Position numbers and translations under genes: made by a program. A DNA stretch of 64,000 bases, taken from contig PGZD01000002.1 of assembly GCA_002843155.1 (NCBI GenBank), positions 1-64,000 on the forward strand. Direction: 5' to 3'. A model generated the notes under the pieces. The model was not told where the DNA came from and did not search any database. It was given only the letters and a program-made list of their open reading frames with translations. Numbering within the stretch: position 1 is the first letter of the stretch; the number at the start of each line of letters is the position of its first letter. This document shows, piece by piece, positions 21,088-37,971 of this stretch. Source of the stretch: Gammaproteobacteria bacterium HGW-Gammaproteobacteria-3. Its GTDB lineage: Bacteria; Pseudomonadota; Gammaproteobacteria; Methylococcales; Methylomonadaceae.

Positions 21088-22437
21088 ATGAATCCTTTTG
21101 TATCCAGAAATATCATTTACCCGCTACAAGAAAAGCTGCTGCATCGACCGACTTTTCCCTATCTTCGGGAGTTGGAGCAAAGCCAATGGTATTCCAGAAG
21201 TGAAATCGAAGCGCTTCAACTCAAAAAACTCCAGGCCTTACTCCGTATCGCACAACGCTACTGCCCCTGGCACAGTCAGCGTATTAACGAATCCGGTATC
21301 GATATCGAGCAGTTAAGTCTCGATAACTTATCGCAATTACCGCTCAGCACCCGCGTCGATGTCCAGCAAAACGGCGAGCAAATGACCTGGCGGGGCGTGC
21401 CCGGTGGGGTTTTCCGTTACACGACCGGCGGTTCAAGCGGCCAGCCGCTGATTTTTAATTTTGGCCGAACCCGTCAGGCTCAAGACGCCGCCAGCCGTAT
21501 TCGCGCCCGGCGCTGGTGGGGTGTCGATGTCGGCGAACCTGAAGTTTATTTATGGGGGGCGCCGGTTGAGCTCAATAAAACCGACCGGATAAAAACTATC
21601 CGCGACCGCCTGCTCAATCAATTATTGCTCAATGCCTTTCAGATGTCAGCCGAAAAAATGGCCGATTATCTGAAAGCCATCGAACAATTCAAGCCCCGCT
21701 GCATTTATGGTTATGCCAGCAGTGTCGCCTTGTTGGCAAAATACGCGCAAGAAACTCAAACGTGCCTGTCGCTGCCTGATCTTAAAGTAGTCTGCACCAC
21801 GGGCGAGCCGCTTTTTCCTGAACAGCGACACTTGATTTCACAAGTTTTCGGGGTTCCTGTGGCTAATGAGTTCGGCAGCCGGGATAGCGGTTTGACCGCG
21901 CATGAAAACAAGCACCATCAATTGTTGCAAATGAGTGAAAGCATGATTGTGGAAGTGTTGGATCAACAAGGTCGGGCGGTCAAACCCGGCGCAATGGGGG
22001 AGGCCGTCATTACCGGATTGTGCTCCGAAGCCCAGCCTTTTATACGCTATCGTACCGGCGACATGCTCAAACTTTCCGATACCGCAGACAAGGATGGCCG
22101 TGGCCTGCATGTTCTGGATGCAGTGATCGGTCGCAGTACCGATTTTCTGGTGCATCAGGACGGTTCCATTGTCCACGCGCTGGCGGCGATTTATACTTTG
22201 CGTGAAACTCCCGGCGTCGAGCAATTTAAAATCATTCAGCAACGTATCAATGAGTTCGAGATTCTGATTGTCACCAATGCTTTTTGGAAACCGGCCTCAC
22301 TGGGCAGCATCGAGCAAAAATTCAAGGCGCGCTTCGGCCCGCAATGCCGGACGCATATCCGTCTGGTAGACAGTATTGCGCCGGAAGCGTCCGGGAAAAT
22401 CCGCCAAGTCGTGTCTAAAGTTGAGCCTGTTTTTTAA
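21088..22437 (+). CDS. PaaK/CapK-like adenylate-forming enzyme
   Basis: A 449-residue member of the phenylacetate-CoA ligase (PaaK/CapK) branch of adenylating enzymes, which activate a carboxylate with ATP. Visible are the phosphate loop YTTGGSSGQP near residue 112, the adenine-side motif NEFGSRDSG and the hinge region YRTGDMLKL. Members outside aromatic degradation often act in polysaccharide or natural-product pathways. No phenylacetate genes are nearby, so the substrate is unknown. It starts 204 bases from the divergent PEPCK-like gene and is followed by a secreted TPR protein. Confidence 0.85.
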   Translation: MNPFVSRNIIYPLQEKLLHRPTFPYLRELEQSQWYSRSEIEALQLKKLQALLRIAQRYCPWHSQRINESGIDIEQLSLDNLSQLPLSTRVDVQQNGEQMTWRGVPGGVFRYTTGGSSGQPLIFNFGRTRQAQDAASRIRARRWWGVDVGEPEVYLWGAPVELNKTDRIKTIRDRLLNQLLLNAFQMSAEKMADYLKAIEQFKPRCIYGYASSVALLAKYAQETQTCLSLPDLKVVCTTGEPLFPEQRHLISQVFGVPVANEFGSRDSGLTAHENKHHQLLQMSESMIVEVLDQQGRAVKPGAMGEAVITGLCSEAQPFIRYRTGDMLKLSDTADKDGRGLHVLDAVIGRSTDFLVHQDGSIVHALAAIYTLRETPGVEQFKIIQQRINEFEILIVTNAFWKPASLGSIEQKFKARFGPQCRTHIRLVDSIAPEASGKIRQVVSKVEPVF

Positions 22438-23270: not shown

Positions 23271-24369
23271 ATGCAAGAAATAAATCCGATTAAAAATAAA
23301 ATAGTCGATCTTAAAAGCCGCGAAGACGCGCTTAGGAGGTATCTTTGACTTCGATACTAAAAATGAGCGTTTAATCGAAGTATTAATGGAACTGGAAAAT
23401 CCCAAAATCTGGGATAATCCTGAGCAGGCTCAAGCGCTGGGTAAAGAGCGCGGACAATTGGAAGCCGTTGTCGAGACTATCAATGATTTGACGCAAGGCC
23501 TTAACGATGCTGAAGAATTACTGGCCATGGCGGTTGAGGAAGGCGACGAAGACACTGTCGATACGCTGGTCAACGATCTTGAGCGGTTCGAGAAAAAAGT
23601 GTCTGTTTTGGAATTCAGACGCATGTTTGCCGGGGAAATGGATGCCAATAATGCTTTCCTCGACATTCAATCCGGCTCCGGCGGCACCGAAGCCCAGGAC
23701 TGGGCTTCGATGATCGAGCGCATGTATTTGCGTTGGGGTGAGGCCAAAGGCTTCAAAACCGAATTGATCGAAGAATCCCCGGGCGATGTCGCCGGCATCA
23801 AAAGCGCCACGATCAAATTTGAAGGCGACTACGCATTCGGTTGGTTGCGGACTGAAACCGGGGTGCACCGTCTGGTCAGAAAGTCGCCGTTCGACTCCGG
23901 CAATCGTCGGCATACGTCGTTCGCATCGGTGTTCGTATCGCCGGAAATCAACGAAGACATCGATATCGACATCAACCCGGCTGATTTGCGTGTCGATGTG
24001 TACCGAGCCAGCGGCGCCGGTGGCCAGCATATCAACAAAACCGAATCGGCAGTGCGTATCACCCATGCACCCAGCGGCATTGTCGTACAATGTCAAAGCG
24101 ACCGTTCGCAGCATAAAAACCGCGATACCGCGATGAAACAGTTGAAAGCCAAACTGTACGAAATGGAAATGATGAAACGCAGCGAAAAGCAGCAGGCTCT
24201 GGAAGATTCCAAATCGGACATCGGCTGGGGCAGCCAGATACGGTCTTATGTGCTGGATCAATCGCGCATCAAGGATTTACGCACCGGTGTCGAAACCGGC
24301 AATACCCAGGCCGTGCTCGACGGCGAACTGGATCAGTTCATCGAAGCCAGCTTGAAGAGCGGGTTGTAA
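23271..24369 (+). CDS. prfB: Peptide chain release factor 2, programmed +1 frameshift
   Basis: RF2 ends translation at UGA and UAA. The gene is in two frames. ATG at 23271 opens 25 codons ending CTT, followed by an in-frame TGA at 23346-23348; translation continues in the +1 frame from GAC at 23347. The joined product is 365 residues, the same as E. coli RF2. It has the stop-recognition SPF tripeptide (VRKSPFDSG) and the catalytic GGQ loop ([16 protein letters not shown]). The frame starting at ATG 23386 alone would miss the N-terminal domain. lysS follows 46 bases downstream, as in many gammaproteobacteria. Confidence 0.97.
23334..23349 (+). promoter_or_regulatory. prfB programmed frameshift site
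   Basis: An internal Shine-Dalgarno AGGAGG lies three bases before the slippery CTT TGA C. This is the classical autoregulatory element: when RF2 is scarce the ribosome stalls at UGA and slips +1, making more RF2. Compared with the E. coli site the SD differs by one base (AGGAGG instead of AGGGGG), while TATCTTTGAC is unchanged. Confidence 0.97.
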
Positions 24370-25964: not shown

Positions 25965-26106
25965 CCCGCGCCGTCTGCCGCACCTTGCAGTAAGGTTCAT
26001 GGACAGTGCCCGACTTAACGCTATATTATTAAGGCTCTACACCACACTAAAGTAACGACCGCTCTTTCGCTTTACCCTTTTTTCAAACGTAAAAAAGAAG
26101 GCCGAT

Positions 26107-28446
26107 ATGAAGCAAAACACCTATCCGGAGGACTGGCCCGATATTGACACCGCCCTCTACAACCGCTCCGTCAAACTGTTCAGAGCCGTCAAAAATCTGC
26201 TCAGCGTCAAGTTTGAACTGTACGCTGATACGCAGGTGCTGCAAGGCGATATTTTCCTGTTCAATCATTTTTCCCGCTTCGAAACGTTTATTCCGCAGTT
26301 CCTGATTTTCGAAAAAACCGGCGCCTACAGTTGCGCCATTGCGGCTGGTGAATTTTTCAATGAAGACAATGTGCTGTCGAACTATCTCAAAAATGTAGGT
26401 GTTTTTCCACACGATCATCCGCGTCTGTTTGCGATGCTGGCGGGACAAATACTGCGGGGACGCAAAGTCATTATTTTTCCGGAAGGCGGCATGGTCAAGG
26501 ATCGCCGCGTCATCGACAAAAAAGGGGAATACAGCATTTTTTCCCGCATGACCGGCAACCGCCGCAAACACCATACCGGCTCTGCGGTTTTGGGGCAGGG
26601 CGTGGAAGCCTTGAAAGCGGCGATTCGTTATGCTTTTAAAAAAAATGACCTCGAACGGCTGCAACACTGGAAAGAACTGCTGCAATTCAACAGTCTGGAC
26701 GAGCTGATGGCGACAGCGCTGAAGCCGACCTTGATCGTACCGGCCAATATCACTTTTTATCCCATCCGCGCTTCGGAAAATATGTTGTTCAAAGGCGTCG
26801 AGTTGTTTTCGGACAAACTGAGCCTGCGCCAGTCCGAGGAACTTCTGATCGAAGGCAATATCATGCTCAAGGATACCGATATGGATATTCGCATGGGTTG
26901 CCCGGTCAACCCTTGCTGTGTCTGGGACTGGCGTACTCACTGGCTCATGGATAAGGTCGCGCCGGGCTTGCAGGAGCTGGACGATGTGTTCAAACTGAAA
27001 ACACGGCCCAGAAACTGGCAAGAACGTTTACTGGGTCATTATTTTATCAAAAATGCGCAATGCTCGCGCAATCAGTACATGGAAGCAATCTACGCCAATG
27101 TCACGATCAATCTCAGTCATCTGGCTTCCACACTGATCATGACCTTGATCGGCGAGGGACGGCAGCATATCGAAAAAAGCCGGTTTTACACTGTGCTGTA
27201 CATCGCTATTAAAAACCTGCAAAAAAACACTGAGATTCATTTACATCGCAGTCTTTTGAATCCTGCCGATTACGGCGATTTGATTCAGGGCGTCAGCGTC
27301 CGCTTCGATCAGTTTATCTGTGTCGCCAAGGAAGCGGGCCTGATTACCGAGCAGGACGAATGCTATTATTTTTTAGCCAAGCTTTGTGAAGACCACGATT
27401 TCGACCGCATCCGTCTGGAAAATCCAATCGCCGTCTATCACAATGAAGCCGCGCCTTTGCGAACCGTGCGCGACGCCTTGCTGGCGGCGAACCGGGATTA
27501 TCGGAAAATGAATCCTTATCAACTCGCCGCCTGGCATTTTGAAGATGAACAATTGAACCTGGCTTTTGAGCAACAAAGCTACAGCACACAGCGAAACGGC
27601 GACATCCAGCAGCAAGAAACCGCCATCGCCGCCCCCTCGCCTTTTTTTATCAAACCCAAAAAAGCCAATGGCTTTGGCATTTTACTGGTGCACGGGCTGC
27701 TCGCCAGCCCAGCCGAAGTGCGCGCTTATGGCCATTATTTGGCGAGCCAGGGTTATACCGTGCTGGGCATACGATTAAAAGGTCACGGGACTTCGCCTTA
27801 TGCGCTGCGCGATGTGACTTATGAGCAATGGGGCGAGTGCGTCAAACGCGGACTCAACATTCTCAAGCTGCATTGTCAGAAACTGTTTGTCATCGGTTTT
27901 TCCACCGGCGGTGCGCTGGCGCTCAATCTGGCTGCGGAACAACATCCCGAAATTATCGGTCTGATTGCCGTGTCGGTACCGATAAAATTCGTCAACTCCG
28001 CTTTCATGCTGGTGCCTTTGCTGCATAACGCCAATGCCCTGGTACACTGGATATCGAGTCTTGAAGGCGTCAAACCTTTTCTTGAAAATACGCCCGAGCA
28101 TCCCGACATCAACTATTGCAATATTCCGGTGCGGGCTTTGTACGAATTGCGGCGGTTGATTCAGCATATGGAAGCCTCGCTCCCCGATGTGGAAACGCCC
28201 ACTTTGCTGCTGTACGCCGACCAGGATCCGGTGGTATTGCCGCAAAGTTCCGAAATCGTTTTTGCAAAACTCGGCTCAGGACTAAAACAATTGCATCCCA
28301 TAAAATCCGAGCGCCACGGCATATTGATGGAAAACATCGGCGGAACCTGGTCGGTTATCGATGAGTTTTTAAATTTTCATCGGCAAAATCCGGGTTTAGC
28401 GCCGCAAATGTCGGAGCCTTTGCCCCTACAGGAGACAGTATCATGA
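26107..28446 (+). CDS. Acyltransferase / alpha-beta hydrolase fusion protein
   Basis: A 779-residue two-domain protein. The N-terminal part is a PlsC-type acyltransferase with NHFSRFE at 53-59 (a variant of the HX4D motif with Glu) and FPEGG at 124-128. The C-terminal part, from about residue 520, is a serine alpha/beta hydrolase of the monoglyceride-lipase kind. It has the oxyanion LVHGLLASP, nucleophile Ser599 in GFSTGG, an acidic residue in YADQDPVV and a catalytic His in ERHG. The middle (about 250-500) is helical and unassigned. Its stop overlaps the start of fadA (ATGA), so it is tied to beta-oxidation. A role in exchanging or releasing acyl chains of lipids is inferred. Confidence 0.85.
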   Translation: MKQNTYPEDWPDIDTALYNRSVKLFRAVKNLLSVKFELYADTQVLQGDIFLFNHFSRFETFIPQFLIFEKTGAYSCAIAAGEFFNEDNVLSNYLKNVGVFPHDHPRLFAMLAGQILRGRKVIIFPEGGMVKDRRVIDKKGEYSIFSRMTGNRRKHHTGSAVLGQGVEALKAAIRYAFKKNDLERLQHWKELLQFNSLDELMATALKPTLIVPANITFYPIRASENMLFKGVELFSDKLSLRQSEELLIEGNIMLKDTDMDIRMGCPVNPCCVWDWRTHWLMDKVAPGLQELDDVFKLKTRPRNWQERLLGHYFIKNAQCSRNQYMEAIYANVTINLSHLASTLIMTLIGEGRQHIEKSRFYTVLYIAIKNLQKNTEIHLHRSLLNPADYGDLIQGVSVRFDQFICVAKEAGLITEQDECYYFLAKLCEDHDFDRIRLENPIAVYHNEAAPLRTVRDALLAANRDYRKMNPYQLAAWHFEDEQLNLAFEQQSYSTQRNGDIQQQETAIAAPSPFFIKPKKANGFGILLVHGLLASPAEVRAYGHYLASQGYTVLGIRLKGHGTSPYALRDVTYEQWGECVKRGLNILKLHCQKLFVIGFSTGGALALNLAAEQHPEIIGLIAVSVPIKFVNSAFMLVPLLHNANALVHWISSLEGVKPFLENTPEHPDINYCNIPVRALYELRRLIQHMEASLPDVETPTLLLYADQDPVVLPQSSEIVFAKLGSGLKQLHPIKSERHGILMENIGGTWSVIDEFLNFHRQNPGLAPQMSEPLPLQETVS

Positions 28447-29585
28447 AAAATGTCGTTATCGCAGCTTACGCACGCTCACCGTTTACTCCGGCCTACAAGG
28501 GCGCACTGATCGGTGTTAGGCCGGATGATCTGGTCGCGCAGGTGGTCAAGGTGCTGGTTCATAAATCCGGCATCGATCCGAATGATATAGAAGACCTGAT
28601 TCTCGGCTGTGCTTTCCCCGAAGGCGAGCAAGGTCTCAATCTGGCGCGTTTGGTGGTGCATTTGGCCGGACTCCCTGTCAGCATTGCCGGCGTCACCGTC
28701 AACCGTTTTTGCGGCTCATCCATGCAAGCCGTTCATATTGCCGCAGGCGCCATTCAAATGAACGCCGGTGAAGCGTTCATCTGCGCCGGTGTGGAATCGA
28801 TGAGCCGGATACCGATGGGCGGTTTCAATACCTTGCCCAATCCCGGACTTTATCAGGATTACCCGCAGGCTTATATCGGTATGGGTGAAACAGCGGAAAA
28901 TCTGGCATTGAAATACCATATCGACCGCGCGGCCCAGGAAGCCTTTGCCTTGAGCAGTCAGCAAAAAACCTATGCCGCGCAGCAGCAAGGACACTTTGCC
29001 GATGAAATCGTAGTCATCAAACCGGCGCAGGGCGAAGACATTACGCTGGACGGTTGCTTACGGCCCGGTTCCACAGCCGAAGATCTGGCCGGACTGAAGC
29101 CTGCGTTTCTGGAAAACGGCAGCGTCACCGCCGCCACTTCCTCGCCTTTAACCGACGGGGCCGCCGCCGTGCTGGTTTGCAGCGAGGCTTATGCCGACCG
29201 ACACGGCCTCGATAAACTGGCGCGCATCAAGGCCGTGGCGGTATCGGCCTGTTTACCTGAAATCATGGGTATAGGGCCTGTCGCCGCCACTCAAAAAGCC
29301 TTGCAGCGCGCCGGATTGACATTGGCCGACATCGATATTGTCGAACTCAATGAAGCTTTTGCCGCGCAATCTCTTGCCGTATTAAAGGATTTACCCATCA
29401 GTGCGGAAAGGCTCAATCTGGACGGCGGCGCTATTGCCCTGGGTCATCCTTTAGGCGCAACCGGTGCCAGAATTACCGGCAAGGCCGCCAGCCTGCTGCG
29501 ACGTGAAAACAAACAATTTGCCTTGGCCACGCAATGTATTGGTGGTGGTCAGGGTATCGCGACTATTCTGGAGGCTGTGTCATGA
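28443..29585 (+). CDS. fadA: Acetyl-CoA C-acyltransferase (3-ketoacyl-CoA thiolase)
   Basis: Performs the thiolytic last step of fatty-acid beta-oxidation, cutting 3-ketoacyl-CoA to acetyl-CoA and a shortened acyl-CoA. The 380 residues have the acyl-enzyme Cys90 in NRFCGSSMQ, the GHPLGATGAR motif with the catalytic His, and the second Cys in CIGGGQG. It is flanked by ATGA overlaps on both sides (hydrolase fusion upstream, fadB downstream), so the three genes are translationally coupled. Confidence 0.94.
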   Translation: MKNVVIAAYARSPFTPAYKGALIGVRPDDLVAQVVKVLVHKSGIDPNDIEDLILGCAFPEGEQGLNLARLVVHLAGLPVSIAGVTVNRFCGSSMQAVHIAAGAIQMNAGEAFICAGVESMSRIPMGGFNTLPNPGLYQDYPQAYIGMGETAENLALKYHIDRAAQEAFALSSQQKTYAAQQQGHFADEIVVIKPAQGEDITLDGCLRPGSTAEDLAGLKPAFLENGSVTAATSSPLTDGAAAVLVCSEAYADRHGLDKLARIKAVAVSACLPEIMGIGPVAATQKALQRAGLTLADIDIVELNEAFAAQSLAVLKDLPISAERLNLDGGAIALGHPLGATGARITGKAASLLRRENKQFALATQCIGGGQGIATILEAVS

Positions 29586-31894
29586 GTATCGAAAAAGTCG
29601 CCGTGATCGGCGCCGGGGTCATGGGCGCGGGTATTGCCGCACATGTCGCCAATGCCGGTATTGCGGTCGATCTCTTGGACATCGTGCCCAAAGACGGCAA
29701 CCATCGGAATGCCATAGCCGAAAACGCTATTGCCAAACTGCTGAAAACCGAACCGGCTGCTTTCATGCACCTCAAAAATGCACGTCTGCTCAATCCCGGT
29801 AATATCGAGGATCACCTCGATCGTCTGGCGCAAGCCGATTGGGTGATTGAAGCGGTTATCGAAAATCCCGGCATTAAACAGGCGCTGTACCAAAAACTTG
29901 AGACTGTCTGCCGCCCGGATACATTGATTTCATCCAATACCTCGACCTTACCGTTGAGCCTCTTGACGCGTGATTTGCCGGATAGCTTCAAGCGCCGCTT
30001 CATGATCACTCATTTTTTCAATCCACCCCGTTACATGCGGCTTTTAGAGTTGGTCGCGGCACCCGAACTGGACGTCAACCTGTTTAACACCGTCAACGCT
30101 TTCGCCGACCACAAGCTCGGCAAAGGCTGCGTGGTCTGTAACGACACACCGGGATTTATCGCCAATCGCATCGGCACATTCTGGATACAAACCGCCTTGA
30201 TCGAAGCTATCGCGATGAATTTGACCGTGGAGCAGTGCGATGCTGCCATGGCTTTGGTCGGTATCCCAAAAACCGGCGTATTCGGCTTAATGGATTTGGT
30301 CGGACTGGATCTCATGCCGCATATTTTAGAAACTTTTAGGCACAGCCTGTCGGCCAACGACCGCTTACGCGCTATCGCCGCCGTGCCGCCGCTATTGCAG
30401 GGCATGATTGCCAAAGGTTTGACCGGCCGCAAAGGCGAGGGCGGCTTTTATCGGCTGCAACCGGGCGCCAAGCATAAAATCAAGGAGTCCATTGATTTAC
30501 AAAGCGGCGAATACCGCGTGAGTGAGAAATTTCAGATCAAAGGCGTATCCCACAAAGCTGAAGATTTGCGGACTTTTCTGAGCGCTGACGAGGCGCTCAA
30601 CCGTTATACCTGGCGCGTCCTGTCGGAAACACTCAGCTATAGCGCAAGCTTGATTCCGGAAATCGCCGACAACATTGTCGCGGTCGATACTGCCATGCGT
30701 CTGGGTTATAACTGGCGTTACGGCCCGTTCGAATGGCTTGACCGCCTCGGTGTTGACTGGTTTATCGATAAATTGCTGGCGCAAAATCAAGCTGTTCCTT
30801 ATCTGTTGGCGGACCGGCAAAGTCTGTATCGGAGTTACAACGGACAGTTACAATTCAAGGACACGGAAAACCATTATCAACCCTTACAGCGCCCCGAAGG
30901 GGTTTTGCTGCTGAGCGACATCAAACGCCGAAGCTCCGCGCTCTTGAGTAATGCCTCGGCCAGTCTGTGGGATCTCGGTGACGCGATAGCCTGTTTTGAA
31001 TTTCACAGCAAAATGAATACTCTGGATCCGGATATTTTAAATCTTTTGCAACAAAGTCTCGCTTTGCTTGCACAAGACTTTAAGGGACTGGTGATTCATA
31101 ACGAAGCGGAAAACTTTTCGGCCGGAGCCAATTTGACGTTACTGATGCCCGCCATCGTCAATCAGGACTGGGCGACTGTCAAAGCCATCATCCGTCTTGG
31201 CCAGCAAACGTATCAAGCCCTGAAATACGCGCCTTTTCCCGTGGTGGGCGCGCCTTCAGGACTGGCCTTGGGCGGCGGCTGCGAAATATTATTGCACTGT
31301 GACGCCCTTGTTGCCCATGCCGAACTTTACACAGGACTCGTGGAAGTGGGCGTCGGTCTGGTGCCGGGCTGGGGCGGCTGCAAGGAACTTCTGCGCCGCT
31401 GGCTGGCATTCCCCAAACGTCCCGGTGGCCCCTTGCCGCCCATTGCGCAAACTTTTGAAACCATTGGCCTCGCCAAGGTTTCAAAATCCGCGCAAGAGGC
31501 TCGGGATCTGTTGTTTTTATCCAAAACCGACAGCATCACGATGAACAAAGACCGTTTATTAGCGGACGCCAAACACCGCGCAGTGGCTTTGGCGGAAAAT
31601 TACCGGCCGCCCGAACTTTTCGTGTACAGCTTGCCGGGAAAAAGCGGCTGGTCCGCGCTGGATATTGCCGTGCACAACTTACATCTGGCGGGTAAAGCCA
31701 GTGCTTATGATGTTGAAATTTCACGGCAATTGGCTGTCGTTTTAAGTGGTGGCGACACCGGCATCACCCGGCCTTTGACTGAACAGGATTTACTGGATCT
31801 GGAGTTGGAAGCTTTTTTGACCCTGGTCAAACAACCTTCTACGTTGGCAAGACTGGAACATATGCTCAAAACCGGCAAACCTTTAAGAAACTGA
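29582..31894 (+). CDS. fadB: 3-hydroxyacyl-CoA dehydrogenase / enoyl-CoA hydratase
   Basis: A multifunctional beta-oxidation enzyme of 770 residues from the ATG at 29582 that overlaps the fadA stop. The dehydrogenase part comes first: Rossmann GAGVMGAGIAAHVA near residue 10, then HFFNPPRYMRL and NDTPGFIANRI. The hydratase part lies toward the C-terminus, with GLALGGGCEILLHCDA and VEVGVGLVPGWGG. This order is the reverse of E. coli FadB, where the hydratase is N-terminal, and belongs to a separate known branch. An in-frame start at 29534 lies inside fadA and is rejected. Confidence 0.93.
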   Translation: MSIEKVAVIGAGVMGAGIAAHVANAGIAVDLLDIVPKDGNHRNAIAENAIAKLLKTEPAAFMHLKNARLLNPGNIEDHLDRLAQADWVIEAVIENPGIKQALYQKLETVCRPDTLISSNTSTLPLSLLTRDLPDSFKRRFMITHFFNPPRYMRLLELVAAPELDVNLFNTVNAFADHKLGKGCVVCNDTPGFIANRIGTFWIQTALIEAIAMNLTVEQCDAAMALVGIPKTGVFGLMDLVGLDLMPHILETFRHSLSANDRLRAIAAVPPLLQGMIAKGLTGRKGEGGFYRLQPGAKHKIKESIDLQSGEYRVSEKFQIKGVSHKAEDLRTFLSADEALNRYTWRVLSETLSYSASLIPEIADNIVAVDTAMRLGYNWRYGPFEWLDRLGVDWFIDKLLAQNQAVPYLLADRQSLYRSYNGQLQFKDTENHYQPLQRPEGVLLLSDIKRRSSALLSNASASLWDLGDAIACFEFHSKMNTLDPDILNLLQQSLALLAQDFKGLVIHNEAENFSAGANLTLLMPAIVNQDWATVKAIIRLGQQTYQALKYAPFPVVGAPSGLALGGGCEILLHCDALVAHAELYTGLVEVGVGLVPGWGGCKELLRRWLAFPKRPGGPLPPIAQTFETIGLAKVSKSAQEARDLLFLSKTDSITMNKDRLLADAKHRAVALAENYRPPELFVYSLPGKSGWSALDIAVHNLHLAGKASAYDVEISRQLAVVLSGGDTGITRPLTEQDLLDLELEAFLTLVKQPSTLARLEHMLKTGKPLRN

Positions 31895-31907
31895 AGGTTC
31901 TGGTGTT

Positions 31908-31923
31908 TCCAGGTAAACCTGGA
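31908..31923. repeat. Small palindrome between fadB and fadE
   Basis: TCCAGGT AA ACCTGGA, a perfect 7-bp stem in the 73-base gap between fadB and fadE. It could be a weak attenuating hairpin or a protein-binding palindrome. There is no T-run. Confidence 0.3.
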
Positions 31924-31967
31924 GTCAGCGCGTCGTCACTATAAAAATAATCTTACCGGAGCGTCTC

Positions 31968-34283
31968 ATGTCAAAACTTGTTCTACTCGTCATGATAATC
32001 GGCCTTGCCGGTTTATTGGGTTTACCGCCACTCCGGCGCAGGTTTCTGAGCCGTCCGCTGTTCACAAAAATGCGTAAAAGCCTGCCGCCGATGTCGCAAA
32101 CCGAACGCGAAGCGCTGGAAGCGGGCAATACCTGGTGGGACGCCGAACTGTTCACCGGCAAGCCCGACTGGCACAAACTCAAAGAACTTCCAGCCGCCCG
32201 TTTAAGCGAGGAAGAACAGGCCTACCTCGATGGTCCGGTGGAAACTTTGTGCGCCCTATTGAACGACTGGGACATCACCCATACGCGCCGCGATTTGCCG
32301 CCGGAAGTGTGGGATTACATCAAACAGCACAAGTTTTGCGGCATCATCATTCCCAAACACTACGGGGGCCTTGAGTTTTCAGAATTCGCCCATTCCCAAA
32401 TCGTCATGAAAATCGCCAGCCGCAGCACCAGTGCAGCGGTCACCGTGATGGTGCCCAATTCTTTAGGACCTGCCAAATTGTTGCTGGCTTATGGAACCGA
32501 AAAGCAAAAAGATCACTATCTGCCGCGTCTGGCGACAGGTGAGGAAATTCCCGCATTCGCGCTGACAGGCCCGCAAGCCGGCAGTGACGCAGGCGCCATG
32601 CCCGATACCGGCATCGTGTGTCACGGCGCTTTTGAAGGCAAGGAGCGGGTGCTGGGGATACGACTGAACTGGGAAAAACGCTACATCACACTGGGACCTG
32701 TGGCCACTGTCTTGGGGCTGGCGTTCAAATTATACGATCCCGAACATTTACTGGGTGAGGACGACGACATCGGCATCACTGTGGCGCTGATTCCAACCAA
32801 TACACCCGGTATTGCTATCGGCAAACGCCATTTTCCGCTGGATTCGGCTTTTCAGAATGGGCCGAACTGGGGCAAGGATGTGTTTATTCCGCTGGACTGG
32901 ATTATCGGTGGTAAAGCGCAAGTCGGCCAGGGCTGGAAAATGCTGATGCAATCGCTGGCGACCGGCCGCGCCATTTCCTTACCCGCGCTCAGTGTCGGCG
33001 CGGCCAAGTTCATCTGCCGCAACACCGGCGCTTATGCGCGTATCCGTACCCAATTCAATCTGCCTATCGGCGCTTTTGAAGGCATCGAAGAAGTGCTGGC
33101 GCGTATGGCGGGCACGGCGTATCTGATGGACGCAGCGCGCCAGGTCACCTGCGCCGCACTGGATGAAGGCCAGAAACCGGCGGTGATTTCGGCGATTCTC
33201 AAATACCAGTTGACCGAAGGCATGCGCCGCATCATTAACGACGGCATGGACATTCAGGGCGGTTCCGGGATTTGCCTGGGGCCGAGCAATTTTATCGGCC
33301 GTCTGTATCAGGTCATTCCGGTTGGTATTACCGTGGAAGGCGCGAACATCCTCACCCGCACCATGATGATTTTTGGCCAGGGTTCGGTGCGTTGCCACCC
33401 TTTCATTCAAAGTGAAATGAATGCTTTGAATGACCCCGACCCGACCGCCGCCTTGCACGCATTCGACGCCGTGTTATGGCGCCATATCGGCTTTTTTCTG
33501 AACAATCTCGGACGGGGCTTCTGGTTTGGCCTGGGTGGGGTAAAACTGGCCTCCACGCCCGGCGACAAAAATACCCGGCGTTATTACCGGCAACTGACCC
33601 GCCTCAGCACAGGCTTTGCGCTGGCCGCCGATTTTGCGCTGCTCACGTTGGGCGGGCAACTGAAACGCAAAGAAAGACTTTCCGGCCGCTTTGCCGATGT
33701 CTTGAGTTTTTTGTATCTGTGCTCTTGCGCGCTGAAACACTTTGAAAATCAGGGTTCACACCCCGATGATCTGCCGCTGTTGCACTGGGCTTGCCGGTAC
33801 AGCCTGTATCGCGCCCAGCAATCCCTGCTGGCGGTGTTTCACATGCTGCCCGCACGCATTCCGGCATTGCTGCTGCGTGCGTTATTGTTTCCGTTGGGAC
33901 GCCCCTGCGCGCCGCCACCGGATAAACAAGTGGGGCCTCTGGCGCAGTTGCTTCTTGAGGATAGTCCGGTTCGCGACCGCTTGACGGCAGGAATTTATAG
34001 CAACGAAAATCCGCTTGACGCTACCGGCAGAATAGAAACTGCGTTCAAGGCCGTATTGCAGGCCGCACCCATCGAGACAAAACTGCACAATGCCCAAAAG
34101 CAAGGCCTGTTGCGCAAAGGCGTTTTACCGGGCTTGCTACAGGAAGCGTTGCAGGCAGACATTATCACTGAAGCCGAAGCCGATTTAATCAACCAGGCCG
34201 AACAAGCGCGTCTGCTGGCGATAAGTGTCGATGATTTTTTGCCCGAACAGTTGACCGGCACAAAAAGCGGCATTAACGTTTAA
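31968..34283 (+). CDS. fadE: Acyl-CoA dehydrogenase, FadE type
   Basis: Introduces the trans-2 double bond into acyl-CoA, the first step of beta-oxidation, using FAD. The 771 residues start with a membrane helix (about 2-20) and a basic linker. The acyl-CoA dehydrogenase core has ALTGPQAGSDAGAMPD and GGSGICLGPSNFIGR, and a long C-terminal extension is typical of FadE (DUF1974). E. coli FadE is 814 residues. It completes an acyltransferase/hydrolase-fadA-fadB-fadE cluster. No fadD, electron-transfer flavoprotein or fadR gene is next to it. Confidence 0.94.
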   Translation: MSKLVLLVMIIGLAGLLGLPPLRRRFLSRPLFTKMRKSLPPMSQTEREALEAGNTWWDAELFTGKPDWHKLKELPAARLSEEEQAYLDGPVETLCALLNDWDITHTRRDLPPEVWDYIKQHKFCGIIIPKHYGGLEFSEFAHSQIVMKIASRSTSAAVTVMVPNSLGPAKLLLAYGTEKQKDHYLPRLATGEEIPAFALTGPQAGSDAGAMPDTGIVCHGAFEGKERVLGIRLNWEKRYITLGPVATVLGLAFKLYDPEHLLGEDDDIGITVALIPTNTPGIAIGKRHFPLDSAFQNGPNWGKDVFIPLDWIIGGKAQVGQGWKMLMQSLATGRAISLPALSVGAAKFICRNTGAYARIRTQFNLPIGAFEGIEEVLARMAGTAYLMDAARQVTCAALDEGQKPAVISAILKYQLTEGMRRIINDGMDIQGGSGICLGPSNFIGRLYQVIPVGITVEGANILTRTMMIFGQGSVRCHPFIQSEMNALNDPDPTAALHAFDAVLWRHIGFFLNNLGRGFWFGLGGVKLASTPGDKNTRRYYRQLTRLSTGFALAADFALLTLGGQLKRKERLSGRFADVLSFLYLCSCALKHFENQGSHPDDLPLLHWACRYSLYRAQQSLLAVFHMLPARIPALLLRALLFPLGRPCAPPPDKQVGPLAQLLLEDSPVRDRLTAGIYSNENPLDATGRIETAFKAVLQAAPIETKLHNAQKQGLLRKGVLPGLLQEALQADIITEAEADLINQAEQARLLAISVDDFLPEQLTGTKSGINV

Positions 34284-34603: not shown

Positions 34604-35734
34604 ATGACTGAGCGTCATTTGCCGAGTGCCGACCCGACTTTACCGACACTGGCCGAAGTGCCGGACGGCAGACTGATTGAACTGAAAGGTCACTGGACGC
34701 TGCGGACATTGACGGCCTTGCCTCAGTTACGGCAACGGCTCAAAAAACTCGACAAGACTAAACAGTGGGATATCAGCGCTATCGAGCGGCTGGACAGTGC
34801 GGCTGCTTTTTTGCTTTGGCAGGCCTGGGGCGAAAAATTACCGGAAGATTTGATCATGCGCCCGGAACAGCGCCGTTTATTCGATTATTGGCATGATCGG
34901 GAAATTCCTCCGCCGCAGCCCATGCGGCCCGATCTTACCGAAGTTTGGCGTTATTGGTTGCTGCTATTGCAAGGCTTCTTCGGGCACATTCGCGCCTGGT
35001 TGACTTTATTCGGGCGTTTACAGCTTGATTTTATTTATTTGTTACGCCATCCCGGCGCCGCACCCTTTAAAGAAATATCGGCAACCATCTACAAGGCCGG
35101 TGTCAGTGCTTTAGGCATTACCGCACTGGTTGGTTTTTTGGTGGGCGTGTCGATGAGTTATTTGTCGGCCTTGCAACTGCAACGCTTCGGCGCGGAAATT
35201 TATATCATCGACTTGCTCGGACTGAGCATTATCCGCGAACTGGGGCCGATGCTGACGGCGATTTTGATCGCCGGCCGTTCCGGTTCTTCAATGACCGCCG
35301 AAATTGGCATCATGCGTGTTACCCAGGAATTGGACGCGCTGTCGGCATTGGGCATTTCCCATACCTTGCGTCTGGTATTGCCAAAAGTGATTGCCCTGTC
35401 CCTGGTATTGCCGCTATTGATCGTCTGGACCGACAGTATTGCCCTGATAGGCGGCATGATGTCGGCGCAACTGGCTCTGGATATTGGCTATCAGCAATTT
35501 CTCGATCATTTGCCGAAGGCAGTGCCGATTGTCAATTTTTATATGGGGCTGGCCAAGGGCGTTGCTTTCGGCATGATGATCGCCATGGTTGCCTGCCATT
35601 TCGGGTTTTTGATCAAACCCAATACCGAAAGCCTTGGCAGCGAGACGACCCGTGCCGTGGTGGCGGCAATTACCGTGGTAATCGTGGTCAATACGGTGTT
35701 CGCCATCGTGTTCAGAAATGTGGGGTTTCCATGA
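34604..35734 (+). CDS. MlaE-type lipid ABC permease with N-terminal STAS-like domain
   Basis: A permease of the MlaE/YrbE family that moves lipids between membranes together with an MCE protein. Residues about 1-105 resemble a STAS domain (LKGHWTLRTL, WDISAIERLDSAAAFLLW), the fold of the separate MlaB protein in E. coli. The permease core starts near 140 and includes RELGPMLTAILIAGRSGSSMTAEIG and TQELDALSALGIS. The stop overlaps the next start by ATGA. This fused form is common outside the enteric mla operon. Confidence 0.9.
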   Translation: MTERHLPSADPTLPTLAEVPDGRLIELKGHWTLRTLTALPQLRQRLKKLDKTKQWDISAIERLDSAAAFLLWQAWGEKLPEDLIMRPEQRRLFDYWHDREIPPPQPMRPDLTEVWRYWLLLLQGFFGHIRAWLTLFGRLQLDFIYLLRHPGAAPFKEISATIYKAGVSALGITALVGFLVGVSMSYLSALQLQRFGAEIYIIDLLGLSIIRELGPMLTAILIAGRSGSSMTAEIGIMRVTQELDALSALGISHTLRLVLPKVIALSLVLPLLIVWTDSIALIGGMMSAQLALDIGYQQFLDHLPKAVPIVNFYMGLAKGVAFGMMIAMVACHFGFLIKPNTESLGSETTRAVVAAITVVIVVNTVFAIVFRNVGFP

Positions 35735-36513
35735 GTGCATCCCCTATGGTGACGCTGGAAAATATCTGGACGTATTTTGGCGACCAGCTCATTCATCAGG
35801 ATATCAGCTTATGTCTTGAGCGGGGGGAAATACTGGGGTTGGTCGGCGCATCCGGCAGCGGCAAAACCACTTTGCTGCGCGAGATAATTGGCCTGGAAAT
35901 ACCCAGCCGGGGCAAATTGTCGGTGCTGGGCGAGGATGTGGCGCAAATCTGCGCTATCGATTGCCTGCAACGGCGCAATCATACCGGCGTGCTGTTTCAG
36001 GGCGGCGCGTTGTTCAGCGCCTTGAATGTATTTGACAATATTGCTTTTCCGTTGCGGGAACTGGTGGTCGATGACGAAGCTCTGGTCGGGCAAATGGTCT
36101 GCATGAAACTGGCCATGGTAGGCTTGAACGCGCATGATGCGATGCTGATGCCTGCGGAGTTGTCGGGCGGCATGATCAAGCGGGCGGCACTGGCGCGGGC
36201 ATTGATTCTGGAGCCGGAACTGTTGTTGCTGGATGAGCCGACTTCGGGTCTCGACCCCATTGCCAGCGAGGATTTTGTTACGCTGTTGCGGCAATTACAT
36301 CGGCAACTCAATTTTACCGTGATGATGATCACGCACGATTTACATATTTTGAAAGATCTGTGCACCAAAGTTGCGGTATTGGCCGATCATCGGCTGATTG
36401 CCTTCGATACGCTGGACAAGGTATTGACTACCGAGCATCCGTTTATTCGGGAGTTTTTTCATAATCATCGCGCGCAAAGGATTTTCAACACCTTGGAGAC
36501 CGCTCATGGGTAA
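35731..36513 (+). CDS. MlaF-type lipid ABC transporter ATPase
   Basis: The ATP-hydrolysing subunit of the MCE lipid transporter, 260 residues. It has Walker A GASGSGKTTLL near residue 37, the ABC signature ELSGGMIKRAALARAL, Walker B LLLLDEPTSGLDP and the switch His in ITHD. It overlaps the genes on both sides, which supports one coupled operon with permease, MCE protein and lipoprotein. Confidence 0.93.
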   Translation: MSASPMVTLENIWTYFGDQLIHQDISLCLERGEILGLVGASGSGKTTLLREIIGLEIPSRGKLSVLGEDVAQICAIDCLQRRNHTGVLFQGGALFSALNVFDNIAFPLRELVVDDEALVGQMVCMKLAMVGLNAHDAMLMPAELSGGMIKRAALARALILEPELLLLDEPTSGLDPIASEDFVTLLRQLHRQLNFTVMMITHDLHILKDLCTKVAVLADHRLIAFDTLDKVLTTEHPFIREFFHNHRAQRIFNTLETAHG

Positions 36514-37420
36514 AGACAGCTATGCGTTAGTGACCGGTTTGTTTATGGCCGCTTTGATAGCCGCTATTGTCGTTATTGCTATCTGGTTGGGCGATGTTCA
36601 GCACCAAACGCGGACTTATGTCGCCGAAACCCGTGCTTCGGTGACCGGTCTCAAGGCCGGTTCCACCGTGTATTATCGCGGCATAGCAGTAGGTAAAGTC
36701 AGCGCCGTGTATTTTGAAGCCGATAATCCGGGCGTGATTGTTGTGCCGATGGAATTGGATGACGACGTACGTCTCAGCCAGGGCGTCTATGCGACGCTGG
36801 AGTTTCAGGGCGTGACCGGTTTGACCAAAATAGCGCTCAACGATAACGGCGATTATTCAAAACTATTGCCAAAGCACGCGCGCATTCCTATCAAACCTTC
36901 GTTGATCGATCGCTTGTCGGCGTCCGGCGAAGATACGGTAGTCGAGGTTCATGAGCTGGTGAAACGGCTGAACGGTTTACTGGATGAAAACAATGTGCAT
37001 CATATCACGCAAATACTGGCAAATGTCGAAGCCGCCACCGCGCGTTTCAACGGTTTGCAGGATCAAGTCGGCAAAACTTTGGCCTTGATGCCCGCTTTAA
37101 GCGCCGATGCGCGCCGCACCATGACCGAAGTTAACGGTTTAACCCAAGAGTTCACCCAATTAAGCCGGCAAATGCGCCAGGAGATGACAATACTTTCCAA
37201 ACAATCAGGCCAATTAATGCAGACCGGCACTTCGGTCGGCCAGCAATTATTGCAAACGACCTTGCCCCGGGCCAATACCCTGATGACTCAAATGCAAGCC
37301 ACAACCCGCCGTTTTGCCCGTCTCGCGTCAACACTGGAAACCCAGCCGCAGGCCTTTCTGCTCGGAGCCGATGCGCTGGAACCTGAGCCCGGTGAAGCGG
37401 ATTTTAAGGAGTCACCATGA
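36506..37420 (+). CDS. MCE-domain substrate-binding protein (MlaD-like)
   Basis: An inner-membrane-anchored periplasmic lipid-binding subunit of 304 residues. One transmembrane helix (about 10-28) is followed by a single MCE domain (about 35-115: SVTGLKAGSTVYYRGIAVGKV and GVTGLTKIAL). A long helical, coiled-coil-prone tail (about 145-285) may form a needle-like hexamer. It overlaps mlaF-like by 8 bases and the lipoprotein gene by ATGA. Confidence 0.92.
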   Translation: MGKDSYALVTGLFMAALIAAIVVIAIWLGDVQHQTRTYVAETRASVTGLKAGSTVYYRGIAVGKVSAVYFEADNPGVIVVPMELDDDVRLSQGVYATLEFQGVTGLTKIALNDNGDYSKLLPKHARIPIKPSLIDRLSASGEDTVVEVHELVKRLNGLLDENNVHHITQILANVEAATARFNGLQDQVGKTLALMPALSADARRTMTEVNGLTQEFTQLSRQMRQEMTILSKQSGQLMQTGTSVGQQLLQTTLPRANTLMTQMQATTRRFARLASTLETQPQAFLLGADALEPEPGEADFKESP

Positions 37421-37971
37421 AAACATTGGCCCGTAACTGGCTGGCATTACTTTTCAGCTTAAACCTTTCCGCTTGCAGCGTTATTTCCGCCAAACCGGGT
37501 TTACCAGTCAGCCATGACCTAGGGCCAGGTGGGGTGCTGATTGCGGACAGCGTCAATGTCACTTTGACCGCCCCGGTATGGCTGTGGGATGAACGTATAC
37601 GCTATCGTCTGCTTTATAAAGACGCCACTGTCGTCCGCTATTATCAGCGGCACCGCTGGGAAGCGCCGTTGCCCGCTTTATTGGAGCGCCGACTCAAGAT
37701 AGCCGGGGCGTCGTCCTTGACCTTGCAAATACAGTTGACGCAATTTGAGCAGCAATTTTCAACAGCCGACAATGCCCGCGTGTTGATGGCTCTGACCGTT
37801 AATGCAATCGCAGAGGACGGTTTCAATTCGCTGGGTAAACGCAGCTTCAGTTTCTCGCAACACACCGTTTCAGCGGATGCGGTCGGTGCCATTGCAGGTT
37901 TTATCGCTTTGACGGAAGAGGCGCGGAATGCGATCGGAATCTGGCTCAAGACGTTGGCCGAAGCGCCTTGA
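37417..37971 (+). CDS. ABC-type transport auxiliary lipoprotein
   Basis: A 184-residue lipoprotein with a signal peptide ending in the lipobox LSAC (Cys at about 20). It belongs to the PqiC/auxiliary-lipoprotein family that accompanies MCE operons and is thought to sit in the outer membrane as partner of the MCE protein. It is the last gene of the four-gene operon. Confidence 0.85.
   Translation: MKTLARNWLALLFSLNLSACSVISAKPGLPVSHDLGPGGVLIADSVNVTLTAPVWLWDERIRYRLLYKDATVVRYYQRHRWEAPLPALLERRLKIAGASSLTLQIQLTQFEQQFSTADNARVLMALTVNAIAEDGFNSLGKRSFSFSQHTVSADAVGAIAGFIALTEEARNAIGIWLKTLAEAP

Follow-up and report, generated by a model that had tools for sequence, protein, structure and literature searches.

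The FUS locus and its operon

The window, meaning the whole 64,000-nucleotide stretch of DNA that was analysed, carries a gene set on its forward strand (Table 1) that opens with a fused gene, called FUS here, and continues with fadA, fadN/fadB and fadE. A sequence-only reading of this DNA had claimed that a single polypeptide joins an acyltransferase and a serine hydrolase. This is confirmed by one 779-aa ORF and by widespread full-length homologues. Its claim that FUS overlaps fadA and that fadA overlaps fadB is likewise correct. Both overlaps are 4 bp long: the ATGA at 28443-28446 holds the FUS stop and the fadA start, and the ATGA at 29582-29585 holds the fadA stop and the likely fadN start. 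The ORF caller lists 29534 as the fadN start, which makes the protein 16 residues longer; we took 29582 as the likely start. The Cys/His/Cys catalytic motifs of the FadA thiolase are intact. The fadN/fadB product scored 490 bits with NF052272, which is under that model's cut-off. No acyl-CoA synthetase gene was found within the FUS-fadA-fadN-fadE set, and an Rfam search of the window gave no match.

Table 1. Features of the FUS locus and related features of the window
Feature	Position	Strand	Basis or remark
Promoter-like site between lysS and FUS	26000..26029	+	Consensus match alone; matches in the region not clearly more than in shuffles
FUS, 779 aa: GPAT/PlsB-fold acyltransferase (predicted), middle domain and monoacylglycerol-lipase-like hydrolase	26107..28446	+	Single ORF, domain matches, fold
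FUS acyltransferase domain, aa 1-270	26107..26916	+	Motifs invariant in 53 homologues; weak PF01553; GPAT1 fold
FUS middle domain, aa 300-500	27004..27606	+	No Pfam match
FUS alpha/beta-hydrolase domain, aa 506-760	27622..28386	+	PF12146; bMGL structures by sequence and fold; conservation
fadA, acetyl-CoA C-acyltransferase, 380 aa	28443..29585	+	TIGR01930, 418 bits vs cut-off 240; active-site motifs
fadN/fadB, 3-hydroxyacyl-CoA dehydrogenase and enoyl-CoA hydratase in FadN order, 770 aa	29582..31894	+	PF02737, PF00725, PF00378
fadE, E. coli FadE-type acyl-CoA dehydrogenase, 771 aa	31968..34283	+	PF09317; NF007000, 1118 bits vs cut-off 600
MCE/Mla-type lipid ABC transporter cluster (permease, ATPase, MlaD-like, lipoprotein-like)	34604..37971	+	320 bp past fadE
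MlaA domain, one of 3 mlaA homologues in the window genome	55146..55724	+	mlaA directly upstream of FUS in one sister clade

The MCE cluster was considered as a member of the conserved module and rejected, as only 3 loci have a matching cluster close to FUS and the adjacency is not kept. MCE/Mla-like genes were also seen near FUS in L125 and L071.

The acyltransferase half of FUS

Motif I of the acyltransferase is NHFSRFE (HX4E, residues 54-59, with H54 and E59), motif III is FPEGGMVKDR (E126, K131 and D132) and motif IV is IVPANITFYP (P212-P219). PF01553 matched residues 48-138 of the window protein weakly, with E values of 0.005-0.012 and 15.9-17.0 bits against a gathering score of 23; it weakly matched 49 of 53 FUS homologues, the best with an E value of 7.5e-7. 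Membership in PlsC/PF01553 was rejected because the motif is HX4E instead of HX4D and the window protein falls below the gathering score.

A structure model of FUS residues 1-506 had a mean pLDDT of 79. Residues 1-468 of this model aligned with residues 167-716 of human GPAT1 (8e4y) with a Z score of 14.4 and an rmsd of 4.4 over 327 residues. The next-best structural match was PlsC, with a Z score of 7.9. Because the GPAT1 score far exceeds that of PlsC, the modelled region, including the domain that follows the acyltransferase, is assigned the GPAT/PlsB fold and not the PlsC type that the sequence-only reading had given it. Sequence-level support for this class is weak. A sequence profile of the N-terminal half gave no match in the PDB, FUS has no GPAT_C match, and hhalign of FUS with a profile from six PlsB sequences produced no convincing alignment. 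Foldseek alone found no match to the N-terminal model at E<0.001.

FUS thus resembles GPAT1/PlsB in the fold over the acyltransferase and the following domain, and its motif III, EGGMVKDRRVID, resembles that of E. coli PlsB, EGGRSRTGRLLD. Unlike GPAT1/PlsB, it has HX4E rather than HX4D, is fused to a lipase and, like the rest of the window genome, gives no match to TIGR03703 (PlsB). Its motif II, as aligned by eye, reads VGVFPHDH and is without the Arg pair (FIRR) of PlsB GAFFIRR; therefore the acceptor is probably not glycerol-3-phosphate. The lipid A acyltransferase LpxL is a known case of Glu at the Asp position of HX4D.

The hydrolase half of FUS

Pfam Hydrolase_4 (PF12146) matched residues 525-742 of FUS with an E value of 9e-24 and 84.5 bits against a cut-off of 27. 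The triad of S599 (GFSTGG), D707 and H737 is intact, and the oxyanion HG lies at residues 529-530. The best matches of this half are bacterial monoacylglycerol lipases, with a sequence E value of 2e-29 and 27% identity to bMGL of Bacillus sp. H257, itself a PF12146 protein; Foldseek gave 1e-17 and a TMt of 0.84 with bMGL. Fold, triad and this degree of identity are common to both proteins. These matches mark the C-terminal 255 residues as a monoacylglycerol-lipase-like hydrolase, predicted to act on monoacylglycerol or lysophospholipid. Unlike bMGL, it is fused to an acyltransferase.

Conservation and integrity of the fusion

Full-length FUS homologues with 37-83% identity occur in dozens of genomes, so the fusion did not arise by chance. 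The relatives, the class sample and 80 named loci all yielded strong homologues over the full length. Separate halves were seen solely where a contig ends or the frame is broken (G035, G038, G055), and from these sequences the fusion looks obligate. H54, E59, E126, K131, D132 and S599 are invariant across 53 homologues; D707 and H737 are invariant in the 52 that cover them, with one gap among the 53. The dN/dS values of five close pairs were 0.07-0.21 in all three domains, indicating purifying selection. Because H54, E59 and E126 are invariant and dN/dS is low, we regard HX4E as the normal state of the family and not as a lesion. The Glu that the sequence-only reading had noticed in HX4D is indeed present as E59, but it is no anomaly. 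A dead acyltransferase is ruled out by the invariant residues and dN/dS, and neither domain of FUS looks dead, an outcome that would have refuted that reading. Our literature search found no account of such an acyltransferase-lipase fusion.

Two unusual copies were seen. A highly divergent fusion (L090, G177) has Tyr for the motif-I His (VNYFTRFE) and PQG for PEG with an intact hydrolase Ser motif; it is possibly a pseudo-acyltransferase. In one single-contig genome (L089, G055), both FUS and FadD have frame breaks and FadE has a stop, probably owing to sequencing errors.

Gene order and co-occurrence with beta-oxidation genes

Gene order was counted over non-redundant FUS loci with enough flank. 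The fadA gene lies on the same strand within 3 kb downstream of FUS in 48/83 loci, mlaA is directly upstream in 29/95, and FadD is directly downstream in 11; a fadA neighbour is absent at Sedimenticola and several further loci. The order in relatives, which had been proposed as a test of the sequence-only reading, is conserved and not random. In a quick FUS tree, with an outgroup chosen as root, forms with an adjacent FadD branch from the deeper Methylococcales lines, and those with an adjacent mlaA nearly all belong to one clade. The simplest reading is that the ancestral order was FUS-fadD-fadA-fadN, that fadD was lost in most of the window's family and that mlaA joined one clade later, although the direction of these changes goes beyond what the tree alone can prove. 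The earlier idea of a self-contained system is not supported, as FadD was probably part of the ancestral order and mlaA has joined in one clade.

Of the 37 genomes in the window's family, 26 have both FUS and fadN and the other 11 have neither. The chance of such an exact match is 1/C(37,11), about 1e-9, by simple counting that ignores shared ancestry. The genes do not adjoin each other in at least five genomes (L060, L063, L064, L065, L066). FadE was found in 25 of the 26 genomes with both genes, the exception being 77% complete, vs none of the 11 without. This co-occurrence strongly supports a functional link between FUS and beta-oxidation. Outside the family, FUS is present without this fadN in G040, G044, G047, G055 and G058; therefore the dependence is not universal.

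Absence of FadD and fatty-acid activation

The sequence-only reading had stated that the set lacks an acyl-CoA synthetase, and this extends beyond the operon: a genome-wide PF00501 search gave no FadD. The whole window genome, estimated to be 100% complete, has three PF00501 proteins, namely an acetate-CoA ligase, an Aas with an LplT-like neighbour and a fatty-acyl-AMP ligase. A complete beta-oxidation set with FadD was found neither in the operon nor in that genome. Directly upstream of aas lies an ORF of many imperfect 'SGVAKYLxKQ'-type repeats (L184:2-997, G000 C76).

A FadD orthologue is missing in 25 of the 26 family genomes that have FUS and fadN. Only two genomes of the family gave FadD at 50% identity or more: G020, where it adjoins FUS, and G033, which lacks FUS. 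In G031, an 826-aa frame holds a 35%-identical match. The sole FUS- and fadN-containing family genome with FadD carries it between FUS and fadA (L067), and basal Methylococcales retain FadD next to FUS. We extended the PF00501 scan to eight relatives and classified eleven of the frames. A FadD hidden among these eleven was rejected, since they are Aas, amino-acid-adenylation/DltA-like, exosortase-associated and 4-coumarate-like ligases; the exception is G029, where a 477-aa frame is long-chain-ligase-like. Ligase frames of Aas size (about 700-750 aa) occur across the family genomes, with or without FUS and beta-oxidation. No genome of the family has PlsB.

A similar situation has been reported for Methylotuvimicrobium buryatense 5GB1, whose fadABE cluster is, like that of the window, a methanotroph beta-oxidation cluster without FadD, FadL and PlsB. 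In that study the organism was found to lack plsB, fadD and fadL, a fadABE deletion mutant grew normally and had 10% more fatty acids, and the absence of fadD despite active beta-oxidation was termed 'puzzling' (Demidenko et al., 2017; PMC5222806). The searched passages of the paper mention no acyltransferase/lipase fusion next to the cluster (PMC5222806). From relatives such as G010 and G036, we infer that the same FUS lies ahead of fadA in this strain.

Proposed role of FUS

We propose, with a probability of roughly one half, that FUS remodels membrane acyl lipids, or strips them, and passes the chains to FadE-FadN-FadA, with substrates, direction and location as inferred here. FUS would be a two-headed lipid-remodelling enzyme, cytosolic or membrane-associated. 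Its monoacylglycerol-lipase-like C-terminal domain would cut the acyl chain off a monoacyl lipid, either a lysophospholipid or a monoacylglycerol, and its GPAT/PlsB-fold N-terminal domain would shift acyl groups between a glycerolipid acceptor and CoA or ACP as the thioester carrier. Freed or surplus chains would be degraded to acetyl-CoA by the co-encoded FadE-FadN-FadA, beta-oxidation serving as the sink. The module would recycle membrane lipid, and the host is probably not a fatty-acid feeder. The sequence-only reading is partly supported: the lipid turnover that it suggested keeps its link to beta-oxidation through co-occurrence, and loses the PlsC label and the self-contained character. 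Its idea of acyl exchange straight to CoA is weakened by the FadD that occurs with FUS in basal lineages and by the Aas-type ligase of these genomes. In the genomes without FadD, acyl-CoA would be made by Aas, by FUS itself or by another enzyme. Aas is the conventional candidate, and a direct route through FUS is only one of several possibilities.

It is conceivable, if somewhat doubtful, that the acyl-ACP synthetase of Aas, or another AMP-forming ligase, took over the role of FadD, with the role of FUS limited to freeing fatty acids by its lipase and using the products to re-acylate lysolipids in an alternative Lands cycle-like scheme. The Aas of the window genome with its LplT-like partner and the Aas-sized frames across the family agree with this, but these frames are present with or without the module and therefore do not track it. 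Moreover, the product of E. coli Aas is acyl-ACP rather than acyl-CoA. That annotated acyl-CoA synthetases might fill the fadD gap was also proposed by Demidenko et al. (PMC5222806).

We consider it unlikely that FUS itself replaced FadD, its acyltransferase running in reverse or its hydrolase acting as a transacylase to move membrane-lipid acyl chains onto CoA with no need of an ATP-dependent synthetase. The near-complete lack of FadD in the family genomes with FUS and fadN, the position of the lone FadD exception between FUS and fadA, the three ligases of the window genome, and the published fadABE phenotype, which points to active beta-oxidation without FadD (PMC5222806), all speak for it. 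Yet an adjacent FadD coexists with FUS in basal lineages, and therefore the family did not arise only where FadD was gone; transfer from ester to thioester is uphill, and Aas-type ligases exist in these genomes. An ATP-independent entry into beta-oxidation, in which FUS makes acyl-CoA from membrane (lyso)lipid and CoA and FadD becomes dispensable in most of the window's family, is similarly improbable. If true, a reversed acyltransferase making acyl-CoA directly would solve the FadD puzzle.

That FUS acts independently in phospholipid or storage-lipid synthesis and shares only its regulation with the operon is very unlikely: it has other neighbours in Sedimenticola and further gammaproteobacteria and fadA is unlinked from it in several genomes, but its exact co-occurrence with fadN over 37 genomes includes the unlinked cases, and FadE behaves likewise.

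Comparison with known systems

The proposed remodelling of membrane lipids by FUS has partial counterparts elsewhere. In the lysolipid repair system Aas-LplT of E. coli, Aas also fuses an acyltransferase with a second acyl-handling enzyme, but its second domain is an acyl-ACP synthetase whereas that of FUS is a hydrolase. The FadN-type enzyme, thiolase and acyl-CoA dehydrogenase set is the same as in the fadNAE operon of Bacillus subtilis; that operon is not known to include an acyltransferase-lipase fusion, and the FadE of the window is of the E. coli type. In E. coli, outer-membrane lipid homeostasis depends on a PldA-FadD-Mla pathway that connects MlaA with the breakdown of phospholipids and the activation of fatty acids (May and Silhavy, 2018; PMC5874903), and mlaA adjoins FUS in one clade. 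Unlike the FUS system, that pathway uses PldA, an outer-membrane phospholipase, and requires FadD.

Both domain superfamilies and a FadD-less cluster in one species were already known. New here are the conserved fusion, the predicted GPAT fold with an invariant HX4E, the all-or-none link with fadN and fadE in the family, and FadD beside FUS in basal relatives. Because a conserved fusion is coupled to a FadD-less beta-oxidation operon, FUS is a prime suspect in the membrane-lipid recycling puzzle, and a conserved, genetically accessible candidate for how FadD-less methanotrophs with active beta-oxidation activate fatty acids. It would add a GPAT-fold acyltransferase family with HX4E that is so far unannotated and looks obligately fused to a lipase. 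In bacteria with abundant internal membranes, it may also connect lipid turnover with the retrieval of outer-membrane phospholipid (MlaA).

Two further observations concern the window upstream of FUS. A 449-aa PaaK/CapK-like adenylating protein without a Pfam match is encoded at 21088-22437. The prfB gene (RF2) at 23300-24369 contains a classic programmed +1 frameshift site, AGGAGG followed by CTTTGAC at 23343; because this site lies before the listed ATG start at 23386, that start is internal.
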